Assembly: GCA_026985075.1 (NCBI GenBank)
Contig: JALSQX010000105.1
Location: forward strand, 1 to 64,000
Direction of reading: 5' to 3'
Source of the DNA: Blastocatellia bacterium
GTDB lineage: Bacteria; Acidobacteriota; Blastocatellia; HR10; J050
DNA length: 64,000 nt
In this document: positions 28,188 to 32,764 of the stretch, piece after piece
How the letters are laid out: each line of letters begins with the position of its first letter
Numbering within the stretch: position 1 is the stretch's first letter
Program-made: the position numbers and the translations under genes
The notes under the pieces: model-generated
Databases searched by the model: none
Seen by the model: only the letters and a program-made list of their open reading frames with translations
What the model was told of the DNA's origin: nothing

Positions 28188-30125
28188 TCACCTCCTCATC
28201 GATGGATTAGAGCGGCGTTTCAGTATCGACTTCAAATTCAAGTTACGAATCAATCGGTGTAAATAGTTCGGGTGTACACCGAGCAATTGAGCAGCCTCGG
28301 TGTAGTTTCCATTGGCTCGTTCGACGGCTTGCACGATGAGATCTTTTTTCAATTCCTGAATAGCGTGATGATAGTTGGTAGGCATCGCCTTCAGAAGCGA
28401 TACCCTCGCGAGTACCGTTTCAGGAAGATCGTCCGGTCGAATCACATGGGATGAGCCGAGGACGAAGGCTCGTTCGATGACATTTCTCAGTTCGCGGACA
28501 TTCCCCGGCCAATGATAACTCATCAACCAGTCTCGTGCTTCTGGGGCGATTCCTTCGATCTGACGGTTGAGGATCTTGTTGTAATAGGCGATGAAATAAT
28601 CGACCAGAAGAGGGATATCATCGCGACACTCTCGTAACGACGGCATTCTCAAGCCCACGACGTTGAGCCGATAGTAGAGATCCTCACGAAACGCGCCTTG
28701 GGCAACGGCGCTCTCCAGATCCTTATTGGTCGATGCAATGAACCGGACATTCGCCTCGATGGGACGCGTTCCCCCAACGCGCTCGAACTCTCGTTCCTCC
28801 AGGACGCGCAACAATTTCGCTTGAAGCGCGGGGGCCATTTCTCCGATCTCATCGAGGAGAACGGTCCCCCCATGGGCCACTTCCAACTTGCCTTTCTTCC
28901 GAGCGGTGGCGCCGGTGAACGCGCCTTTCTCATGACCAAAGAGTTCGCTCTCCAGGAGCGTGTCAGATAACGTTGCGCAATTGATGGCCACAAGCGGGCG
29001 ATCGGCCCGGGGGCTGTTTCGATGAAGGGCGCGAGCCACCAGTTCCTTGCCCGTTCCCGTCTCGCCGCAGATCAATACCGTCGAGTCGGTGGGCGCGACT
29101 TTGGTGATGAACTGGTAAACCTGGCGCATGCCGTCGCTCTCACCGATCATACTGTGAGTGATGAGAGGATCTCGGTGATATGGCTGCACTTCATTCTCGA
29201 GGTGTGCTTCGACTCGCATGTGCTCCATCGCCATCGCCGCCATACTGGCGATGGCCGTCGCGAGTTGGAAGTGGTGCTCATCAAACCGAACCGCTCCGTC
29301 AGTCGTATCGAGGTAGAGCGCGCCTCGTACTTTCCCCAATGCGATCAAAGGGACGCAGAGTAGTGATCGGATGGATCGAGCGGTCGTGGAGGAGGCAGAT
29401 GGAGATTGTGTTTTCTCCCCGATGTCATTGGTCAAGATCCCGATGTTTTCCTGGAGAGCGCGACGGGCGATGGCGCGACTGACTCGAATGGGGCGATCTG
29501 AACCCAGTCGCCGATCCCAGGCATAGGCGGAGGTGCACTCCTCCCAGCCTTCATCAGCCAGCAAGACCGCTCCACGTTCGGCGGGGATGACCTCCAGAAT
29601 CAGTTCCAGCAGCCGATGCCCCAGTTCGTCTATCTTTCGCATCGAGTTGATCAGGATGCCGACATTTACGAGTACATCAAAATCGCGCGCCAGCCGAATC
29701 ATCGAAGTCGATTGGGCGGAGAGATTCTCTAATGACTCGCATCGGGTATCGTCCATCCGGAGTGGAGCGGTGGGCTTCTCGGTTCGGGGCTCATCCTTCA
29801 ATCGAACGGAGCGGGAGGGCGGTGATATCTCGCTCTCATCCAGAATGAAGAGAAATGTAGAGTTTCCTACAGTAATGCGGTCACCGTGCTGGAGGATGTA
29901 ATACGCAACGGCCTTATGATTGATGAACGTGCCGTTGAGACTCTCCAGATCCTTGATTTCATATCCGGTCGCTTCTCTGGCGATGAGGCAGTGGTGGCGC
30001 GACACGGAAGGGTCGGCAATGGTGAGACCATTGGACGATTCGCGCCCTATAGATAGCGTCCTCTTGGTCAGTGCAAAAGTTGTGCCTTTGAGTGGACCAG
30101 TGATGGCGATAAGTTTTGGAGTCAT
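28188..30125 (-). CDS. Sigma-54-dependent enhancer-binding regulator with FHA and GAF domains
   Basis: The ATG at 30125 gives 645 residues; a TTG at 30155 would add ten. The FHA domain lies at about 5-95 ([19 protein letters not shown]) and reads phosphothreonine peptides. A GAF domain at about 150-300 may sense a small ligand. The AAA+ core has Walker A GETGTGKE (354-361) and the sigma-54 contact loop GAFTGA (401-406). A Fis-type HTH ends the protein ([21 protein letters not shown]). The FHA input implies control by a Ser/Thr kinase rather than by a two-component partner. It overlaps the M16 protease gene. Divergent to it lies a perfect -24/-12 promoter, its most likely target. Confidence 0.93.
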
Positions 30126-30208
30126 CGATGAGCCCTCAGCCCTCGTCTCGCTCAATTTGCCGTGTCAAGTGTAAAGCAACTCATGGTGAGGAGCAACAGA
30201 CAGCCAGC

Positions 30209-30273: not shown

Positions 30274-30449
30274 TGAACATCAGGATCTCGGCTATCCGAA
30301 CCGCTGGTCGAACTATGCGATCGGATAGATCCACTCGCTGCCCGATGTTCGGCTCGCGTCCTGTCGAGGCTCAGCCCATAGAAGATATACAGTAGGCCGG
30401 TAAGGAGTTACATCCTACGGCCCGTTTTCTCCCCGCTCGCCCTGTATGA

Positions 30450-30465
30450 TGGCACGCTCATTGCA
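30450..30465 (+). promoter_or_regulatory. Perfect sigma-54 (-24/-12) promoter
   Basis: TGGCACG, four bases, then TTGCA match the RpoN consensus exactly, and the GG and GC doublets are ten bases apart. Transcription should start near 30476 and read into the exported protein gene at 30584. An RpoN-type regulator gene is divergently transcribed next door. Confidence 0.8.
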
Positions 30466-30583
30466 TATTGAACGGTGACCTTTAATGGGTCCGTAGAAGG
30501 TGGGGAAGCCGATGAGTCCACCCGAGATGAATGCGCGATCGGTTCGCTTCCGCCGTCGCCTCACATCAGGAAGGAGGGATAAC

Positions 30584-31054
30584 ATGAGAAAGTTCATGAT
30601 GAGGATTTCCATGATCTTGGGTTGTGTCAGTCTGTTGGCCATGACGCTGCCCGGCCTGACGACGATTCACGGTCAGGTCGTAAGGCAGATGAGCGTGACG
30701 ATCCCGTTCGATTTCGTCGTTGGAAATAAGATGCTCCCGGCTGGGCAGTACACTGTTGAGCCGTTTCACGCCGCTGGGGGAGCGTTATGGTCGCGCCTGT
30801 TGATTCGGAGCGTTGTGGAATCTCCATCCAACTGGGTCGTCATTTCATCGACCATTCCCATTTATACGAATGCGACGTCAGGGAAAGGGAGGCTCATCTT
30901 CAACCGATACGATAGAGATCGCTATTTCCTCTCTCAGATCTGGGTGTCCGGAAATCCCACGGGACGCCAGGTCCTCAAGTCTCGGATCGAACAAAAACTG
31001 ACCAAGAACGTACCCGCGCACCATGTGGTGTCAGTCGTTGCTCAGACCCGGTGA
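30584..31054 (+). CDS. Small exported protein (VTIPFDF/LPAGQYTV type) under sigma-54 control
   Basis: The start at 30584 follows AGGAAGGAGGG. The 156-residue product has a signal peptide (MRKFMMRISMILGCVSLLA, cleavage probably after IHG). It then reads MSVTIPFDFVVGNKMLPAGQ, a pattern I associate with a family of short secreted proteins that is abundant in Acidobacteriota and has no known function. The rest looks like one small beta-sandwich. It is the sole gene between the perfect sigma-54 promoter and a strongly structured 3' region, so it is probably induced on demand by an activator. A cell-surface or periplasmic role is likely; nothing catalytic is seen. Confidence 0.78.
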   Translation: MRKFMMRISMILGCVSLLAMTLPGLTTIHGQVVRQMSVTIPFDFVVGNKMLPAGQYTVEPFHAAGGALWSRLLIRSVVESPSNWVVISSTIPIYTNATSGKGRLIFNRYDRDRYFLSQIWVSGNPTGRQVLKSRIEQKLTKNVPAHHVVSVVAQTR

Positions 31055-31130
31055 ACGACGTCAACCTAGAAGAGAAGGCGACACACCTTTTCAGAGGGAA
31101 GTTGAGCCTGACCTATTGAGCTCGTGCCAA

Positions 31131-31258
31131 TGCGTTCCCAGCTCGCCTGGAGGAGGGGAGCGACGGATCAGGAGCACACTCATCTCGTCGTGTCTGTGGG
31201 CTGGGAACGCGCGGTAGAAAGATCACTCTGGGAGGAAGCGGTGGTGTGTTCCTGATCT
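31131..31258 (+). ncRNA. Two interleaved long stems in the 3' region (pseudoknot-like RNA element)
   Basis: Stem A joins GCGTTCCCAGC (31132-31142) to GCTGGGAACGC (31200-31210) and extends inward to 15 pairs with two G-U wobbles. Stem B joins 31165-31179 (GGATCAGGAGCACAC) to 31244-31258 (GTGTGTTCCTGATCT) with 15 pairs, two of them wobbles. The arms alternate A, B, A', B', so the stems form a pseudoknot or compete. Wobbles count as pairs only in a + strand transcript, which places the element in the 3' untranslated region of the exported protein gene. It may also act as its terminator. Confidence 0.5.
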
Positions 31259-31291
31259 AATGACGGTTCACGTTGGCTCTCTCACCTCGCC

Positions 31292-32764
31292 TCAGCAGGC
31301 CCCCGAAGAGGTGGGCTCGACTTTCGCCTTGAAGAGTCGAAGTGCCCAATTCCCTAGCAGCTTGACCAGGCGGTCGGCTTCCACCGTTCGGGCTGAATCG
31401 GCGGTGATGCCATGCCGGAAATACATCTTTTTATAGATCTTGGAGATGAGCCAGTAAGCCAGAAACGTCGAAGGTCGCGTCAAGCCTATTCGTCGGGCCC
31501 TTTTCATAATCTGCGGCGTGGAATAAAACCCATCCCACAAAAGCCGGAGGGCATTGTGGATCTCTTCGGGTTGGAGGCGAGGGTGTTGGCTGGGCAGACC
31601 CATCTTCTCCAGAAGCCAATACTGTTCCATTCCAGGGATGAGCTTGATGGGCAACTTGTTGTTGATCATGTAGAACCAATCGACGGTGCCGGGGAAAGGA
31701 GTGTACTTAACGAACTGAGCAAAGGCCATGTGAGAGGCATTCGCGACGCGCGCCATCGTCCGGAAGGTCTCCTTGGTGTCTGGCTCTAGTCCTACGATGA
31801 AGGAACCGAGAACGTACACCTGATGAGCTTGCATTCGAGCGATGGCTTCGATGAGATCCTGACCCGTTTTATTGAATTCCTTCTTGATCGATTGGAGTCC
31901 ATCGCGATCCACCGATTCGATTCCGACCAATGCACCACGAATCCGCGCCTTCTCCATAGCTTTGAGGAACTGAGGGTCATCGGCCGTTCTGAGCGTCGTT
32001 TGAGTGAAGAATTTCGCTTCAGATGGGACGTCAGTGGCTAACCGGTCCATCAACTCATAGCGTTGCTCCATGACCTCTTGATAGGCCTTTTGATTCTTTT
32101 TCCCCACCGCATAAAAGTTATCATCGGCGAGAATGAAAAATCGGAAACCGAGCGAGCAAAGAGTATTGATTTCATCGATGATATCATCGGTGGGTCGAAT
32201 GCGCATCTGGCGTCCATCGGTCACCCAGACGGAACAGAAACTACAATTCTCCGGGCAGCCGCGCGTCGTATGGACGGATGCCATCAAATAGCGTTCATGC
32301 TTCATCAGATCCCATCGTGGCTGAGAGACAAAATCTGGTCCTCCGATGCGACCACCATGATAAAGGCGCTGCAGTGCGCCATTAAAAAAGTCGTTCACGA
32401 CGTCAGTCCAGACGAGATCACCATCGCCGGTGACGACGGCATCGGCGCCGTGGTCCAGGACTTCCTCGGGGAAGATCGTGGCGTGAATGCCGCCGACAAT
32501 GACCGTCGCCCCCGAGGTTTCTTTGATCTTCCCGATCTTCTCGTATGCCCGTCTGGCGTTGAGGGTGTGTACACTCAGGGCGACCAGATCGGTCGATTGG
32601 ATCTCATCGTAGTCGATAGGTTCGATGGCCTCATCGAGGAGCACGAGCCGATCGGCAAATTGTGCCGGCGTGGCCCCGGCAATAATGGGCATCCATCGAG
32701 GGGTGACGGCGGCAAAGCCGCTGCAAATATTAGAGGGATTAATCAACCAAATACGTGAATCCAT
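31292..32764 (-). CDS. B12-binding-domain radical SAM protein
   Basis: This 490-residue protein starts after a good ribosome binding site (AAGGAGAGAAG before ATG). The N-terminal cobalamin-binding-like Rossmann domain (about 1-150) has VIVGGIHATIFPEEVLDHGA, without a clear DxHxxG base-off motif. The radical SAM domain carries the [4Fe-4S] cysteines C170, C174 and C177 (TTRGCPENCSFCSVW), then ILADDNFYAV and ALVGIESVDRDGLQSI. Relatives carry out methylations, ring formations or lipid modifications, including BchE- and Hpn-type hopanoid enzymes. The C-terminal 100 residues are helical and not diagnostic. It stands alone, and I cannot name the substrate. Confidence 0.85.
   Translation of the reverse strand: MDSRIWLINPSNICSGFAAVTPRWMPIIAGATPAQFADRLVLLDEAIEPIDYDEIQSTDLVALSVHTLNARRAYEKIGKIKETSGATVIVGGIHATIFPEEVLDHGADAVVTGDGDLVWTDVVNDFFNGALQRLYHGGRIGGPDFVSQPRWDLMKHERYLMASVHTTRGCPENCSFCSVWVTDGRQMRIRPTDDIIDEINTLCSLGFRFFILADDNFYAVGKKNQKAYQEVMEQRYELMDRLATDVPSEAKFFTQTTLRTADDPQFLKAMEKARIRGALVGIESVDRDGLQSIKKEFNKTGQDLIEAIARMQAHQVYVLGSFIVGLEPDTKETFRTMARVANASHMAFAQFVKYTPFPGTVDWFYMINNKLPIKLIPGMEQYWLLEKMGLPSQHPRLQPEEIHNALRLLWDGFYSTPQIMKRARRIGLTRPSTFLAYWLISKIYKKMYFRHGITADSARTVEADRLVKLLGNWALRLFKAKVEPTSSGAC

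Follow-up and report, generated by a model that had tools for sequence, protein, structure and literature searches.

A candidate 3′ UTR hairpin without a U tract between a sigma-54-promoter gene and its convergent neighbour in a Blastocatellia bacterium

The DNA analysed here is a single stretch of 64,000 nt (the window), in which two long, interleaved stems fall within a 237-bp spacer (31055-31291) between a plus-strand gene for a small protein and a convergent radical-SAM gene. The spacer is framed by the following features:

30450-30465, plus strand: sigma-54 (-24/-12) promoter, TGGCACGCTCATTGCA, an exact match to the consensus, upstream of the gene at 30584-31054
30584-31054, plus strand: gene from the list of open reading frames, with a product of 156 aa whose N-terminus is signal-like
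31292-32764, minus strand: convergent neighbour, gene for a B12-binding/radical SAM protein (Pfam PF04055 and PF02310)

The start of the small gene was placed at the ATG at 30584 on the basis of the preceding GGAGG and of the start in the relative. Its product is 88% identical to a counterpart in a genome of the same genus (G001) and gave no match in Pfam or NCBIfam. It belongs to an uncharacterised family of about 156 aa (signal-like N-terminus, 'IPFDFVVGNKMLPAGQYTV') that has no Pfam or NCBIfam model; of 162 genomes in the class, 76 contain the family, many of them in multiple copies. The radical-SAM protein has a 94% identical ortholog in G001, where the gene order is the same. The promoter also has a counterpart at the orthologous place in G001 (TGGCACACTTATTGCA, one mismatch to the consensus). 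A transcript running through the stems is plausible, because the plus-strand gene has a perfect sigma-54 promoter that is kept in the sister genome. The original prediction had located the stems in the 3′ region of the sigma-54 gene; this is correct if the gene behind the sigma-54 promoter is meant, the stems themselves lying in the intergenic spacer and not in the sigma-54 activator gene, which is on the minus strand at 28188-30155 and encodes FHA, GAF, AAA+ and Fis-type domains. A protein-coding explanation for the spacer was rejected: an overlapping plus-strand open reading frame (31023-31217) is interrupted in each of the two related sequences described below, through a 1-bp indel.

The exact sigma-54 consensus TGGCACGNNNNTTGCW has 26 matches in the genome, compared to 0 for a reversed control pattern. 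The copy in the window lies ahead of the gene for the small secreted-type protein, which adjoins the FHA-GAF-AAA+ sigma-54 activator, and this arrangement suggests a local regulator-target pair.

Both stems pair at the positions where they were originally described, with two G-U pairs in each run of 15 bp. Each extends by one further G-U pair, giving 16 bp with 3 G-U pairs. The structural features of the spacer are:

31131-31146, plus strand: stem A, 5′ arm, pairing with 31196-31211
31196-31211, plus strand: stem A, 3′ arm, pairing with 31131-31146
31165-31180, plus strand: stem B, 5′ arm, pairing with 31243-31258; not conserved as a stem
31243-31258, plus strand: stem B, 3′ arm, pairing with 31165-31180; not conserved as a stem
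31158-31194, plus strand: inner stem (31158-31171 paired to 31179-31194) in the loop enclosed by A; it and stem B cannot form together
31126-31215, plus strand: predicted hairpin of 90 nt without a U tract, formed by a GCC/GGU base, stem A and the inner stem (RNAalifold consensus)

The arms alternate along the plus strand in the order A5′-B5′-A3′-B3′, with 18, 15 and 31 nt between them. Those of stem A enclose a 49-nt loop that is partly paired inside, and the stem starts 76 nt past the stop codon. A third stem (31087-31096 with 31226-31235; a pyrimidine and a purine arm) can be seen in the window and in both related sequences, but it pairs differently in each; such a composition makes stems easily, and we do not claim it as a real element.

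To what extent the stems are unusual depends on what is counted. Stems A and B are the sole interleaved pair of at least 13 bp on the plus strand of the window. Interleaved pairs of at least 15 bp and at least 16 bp occurred in 17 and 1 of 1326 block-shuffled windows, respectively (one strand), and shuffling the spacer alone 4000 times gave no such pair at thresholds of 15 or 14 bp. Similarly, none of at least 14 bp was present in 800 kb of background from the same genome (400 kb of stretches, both strands counted). Single long stems, in contrast, are not rare: per 64 kb, this background holds 4.4 stems of at least 15 bp vs. 3.8 after shuffling, and 1.28 vs. 1.35 of at least 16 bp. The plus strand of the window has 8 of at least 15 bp, where 3.8 are expected. 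The interleaved pair is notable but not overwhelmingly unusual, since it was picked after the fact from the whole window.

These counts bear on the main rival to any functional reading, namely that both stems are chance complementarity in a G+C-rich spacer with no RNA function, A persisting simply because the relatives are close. The genome-wide rate of long stems, about that of shuffled sequence, is consistent with this explanation, as is the fold energy of the whole 246-nt UTR (z -0.97), which is no better than that of shuffles; the rarity of two interleaved 16-bp stems (the single case among 1326 windows) argues against it. A second alternative, that a mobile or repeated element (a MITE, a REP-like palindrome or transposon ends) left the inverted repeats behind, would account for two of them lying near each other. 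The element is single-copy, however, with no second copy in the genome either by similarity or by the pattern GCGTTCCC...GGGAACGC; its position is shared with the sister genome, and its arms form no nested terminal repeats. We consider this origin hardly credible.

A DNA search of 58 relatives recovered the orthologous spacer in G001 only, in two variants, G001a on contig C288 and G001b on contig C92. Both contigs include the small gene's 3′ end as well as the radical-SAM gene, whole or in part; the 3′ ends of the small gene agree, while the spacers differ. The two variants probably reflect separate strains or overlapping contigs in the assembly, and are thus not independent relatives. They differ from the window by 35 substitutions in 230 positions (G001a) and 47 in 222 (G001b). 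Weak DNA matches in two other genomes (G029 and G031) were confined to the coding part of the query and did not reach the spacer, and a contig scan with the radical-SAM protein led back only to the same sister genome. A covariance model of the hairpin, run across the 58 genomes, found only its three training loci above noise (best E value otherwise 0.27). Among these genomes, no homologous hairpin was found outside the genus, a further point in favour of chance complementarity.

The two stems fared very differently in these spacers. In G001a, three substitutions on the 5′ side and a deletion on the 3′ side abolish pairing in the apical half of stem B, and 9 bp remain; in G001b, two additional A.C mismatches interrupt the basal half. 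The breaks are uncompensated in both. Simulated neutral change makes decay of B to 9 pairs or fewer an expected outcome (P 0.70 and 0.79). The inner stem, B's competitor within the A loop, keeps all its pairs in G001a and has two of them broken in G001b. In the predicted ensembles, stem A pairs with a probability of 0.90 in the window and 0.999 in both relatives, vs. 0.10 and 0.0, respectively, for stem B, and forcing B in the relatives costs at least 13 kcal/mol. Stem B is thus probably a coincidental or lineage-specific complementarity. The original prediction held that the alternating arms form a pseudoknot or a switch, and had named uncompensated arm changes in related genomes as evidence against it; such changes are what we find for stem B. 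As in H-type pseudoknots and pseudoknotted riboswitches, the arms alternate in the window (A-B-A′-B′). Unlike in those elements, the second stem is not conserved, there is no Rfam match (covariance models, 30400-31400, at E values up to 5) and the structure lies downstream of a gene rather than in a leader. Of the two properties required of a functional H-type pseudoknot, the interleaving of the stems is present, and conservation of both among orthologs, or compensatory change in support of them, is absent.

The window genome could still differ from its sister in having an H-type pseudoknot of its own, or a two-state switch between A plus the inner stem and B. Within a 138-nt region of the window, the fold with A forced (-57.7 kcal/mol) is only 1.9 kcal/mol better than that with B forced (-55.8 kcal/mol), and when the longer UTR is folded, B forms in the minimum-energy structure and A in the centroid. 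Judged by length alone, the stretches between the arms would seem able to bridge the stems, and the interleaving is statistically rare. Against these points, B is lost in both relatives and A by itself dominates the ensemble in the window. We therefore regard a lineage-specific pseudoknot or switch as unlikely, and its more specific form, a two-state 3′ UTR switch on the sigma-54-driven mRNA that was gained here and is absent from the sister, as more doubtful again.

Stem A is the better kept of the two, which bears on how its neutral retention is to be read. It has 16 contiguous pairs in G001a (with a basal pair gained and a loop-side pair lost) and 14 in G001b, and the breaks are limited to one to three pairs at the loop, where the three last pairs are lost in one or both relatives. 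Every change in its core (A.C to G-C, U-G to C-G, A-U to G-U, C-G to U-G and U-G to C-G) preserves or gains pairing on the plus strand, while two of them (A-U to G-U and C-G to U-G) would break pairing on the minus strand. Together with the conserved promoter, this agrees with the original proposal that the stems belong to a plus-strand RNA, as part of a 3′ UTR. The fold is also stronger on the plus strand (-44.7 vs. -36.7 kcal/mol on the minus strand), the difference coming from G-U pairs. Compared to shuffles, the 90-nt hairpin folds better in all three sequences, with z scores of -3.1 (window), -3.6 (G001a) and -2.6 (G001b).

Under neutral simulation with uniform change, a stem would be kept as well as A with P 0.047 and 0.050 in the two relatives, which are not independent. 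The alignment of relatives called for originally yielded no two-sided compensatory change in either spacer, so the support for A is suggestive rather than proof; its conservation appears modestly above neutral expectation. Chance complementarity can accommodate a P value of about 0.05, but fits less well with core changes that are all compatible with pairing and with a local z near -3 in all three sequences. We rate it possible, somewhat short of even odds and close in probability to the reading that we prefer.

The preferred reading, to which we give a probability of about 0.5, is that the spacer carries one hairpin of about 90 nt (31126-31215) as a U-tract-less 3′-end element in the UTR, with no conserved pseudoknot or switch. 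In its favour are the retention of A in both spacers, the pair-compatible core changes, the local z scores, the loss of B, the conserved plus-strand promoter and the stems in three other convergent spacers described below. The hairpin would sit in the 3′ UTR of the mRNA made from the sigma-54 promoter, where it may block RNA polymerase, 3′ exonucleases or both, and could in this way define or protect the mRNA end and separate the transcript from the convergent radical-SAM gene. What began as a suggestive pseudoknot becomes a likely ordinary 3′ UTR hairpin, and little hangs on the outcome.

Bidirectional terminators occur between convergent genes, and the present spacer shares this arrangement with them; moreover, the 11-bp Watson-Crick core of stem A (31132-31142 with 31200-31210) would fold on both strands. 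It differs from them in that the plus-strand fold is the stronger, through its G-U pairs, and in having a U tract on neither side. A terminator with a T run was sought around the hairpin and found on neither flank; the sequence downstream of it is CGGTAGAAAGAT. The 3′-end or terminator-like role is instead proposed by analogy with hairpins lacking a U tract, the I-shaped class of WebGeSTer (definition in PMC7406221). As in that class, a stable G+C-rich stem-loop (with the z score and the shared position in two relatives given above) lies past a stop codon in a convergent-gene spacer, and no U tract follows the stem. I-shaped terminators are compact with a short loop, whereas the loop here is long, the stem begins far from the stop, and both values are atypical compared to other stems after stop codons; because of the long loop, we do not file the hairpin as a member of the class but treat it as a candidate that may terminate transcription.

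Among other convergent spacers sampled, 3 of 24 hold a G+C-rich stem of 15-16 bp that starts 21-22 nt after the plus-strand stop and has no U tract. These spacers (contig C53 of the window's own genome, G000: 74057-74258, 182632-182764 and 270018-270297) may contain U-less 3′-end hairpins, though they are too few for significance. Long stems were likewise not significantly enriched in convergent over tandem and divergent spacers (Fisher P 0.11; 0.37 when the spacer studied here is left out). The three spacers nevertheless offer a small hint that this Acidobacteriota lineage may end convergent genes with hairpins lacking U tracts.
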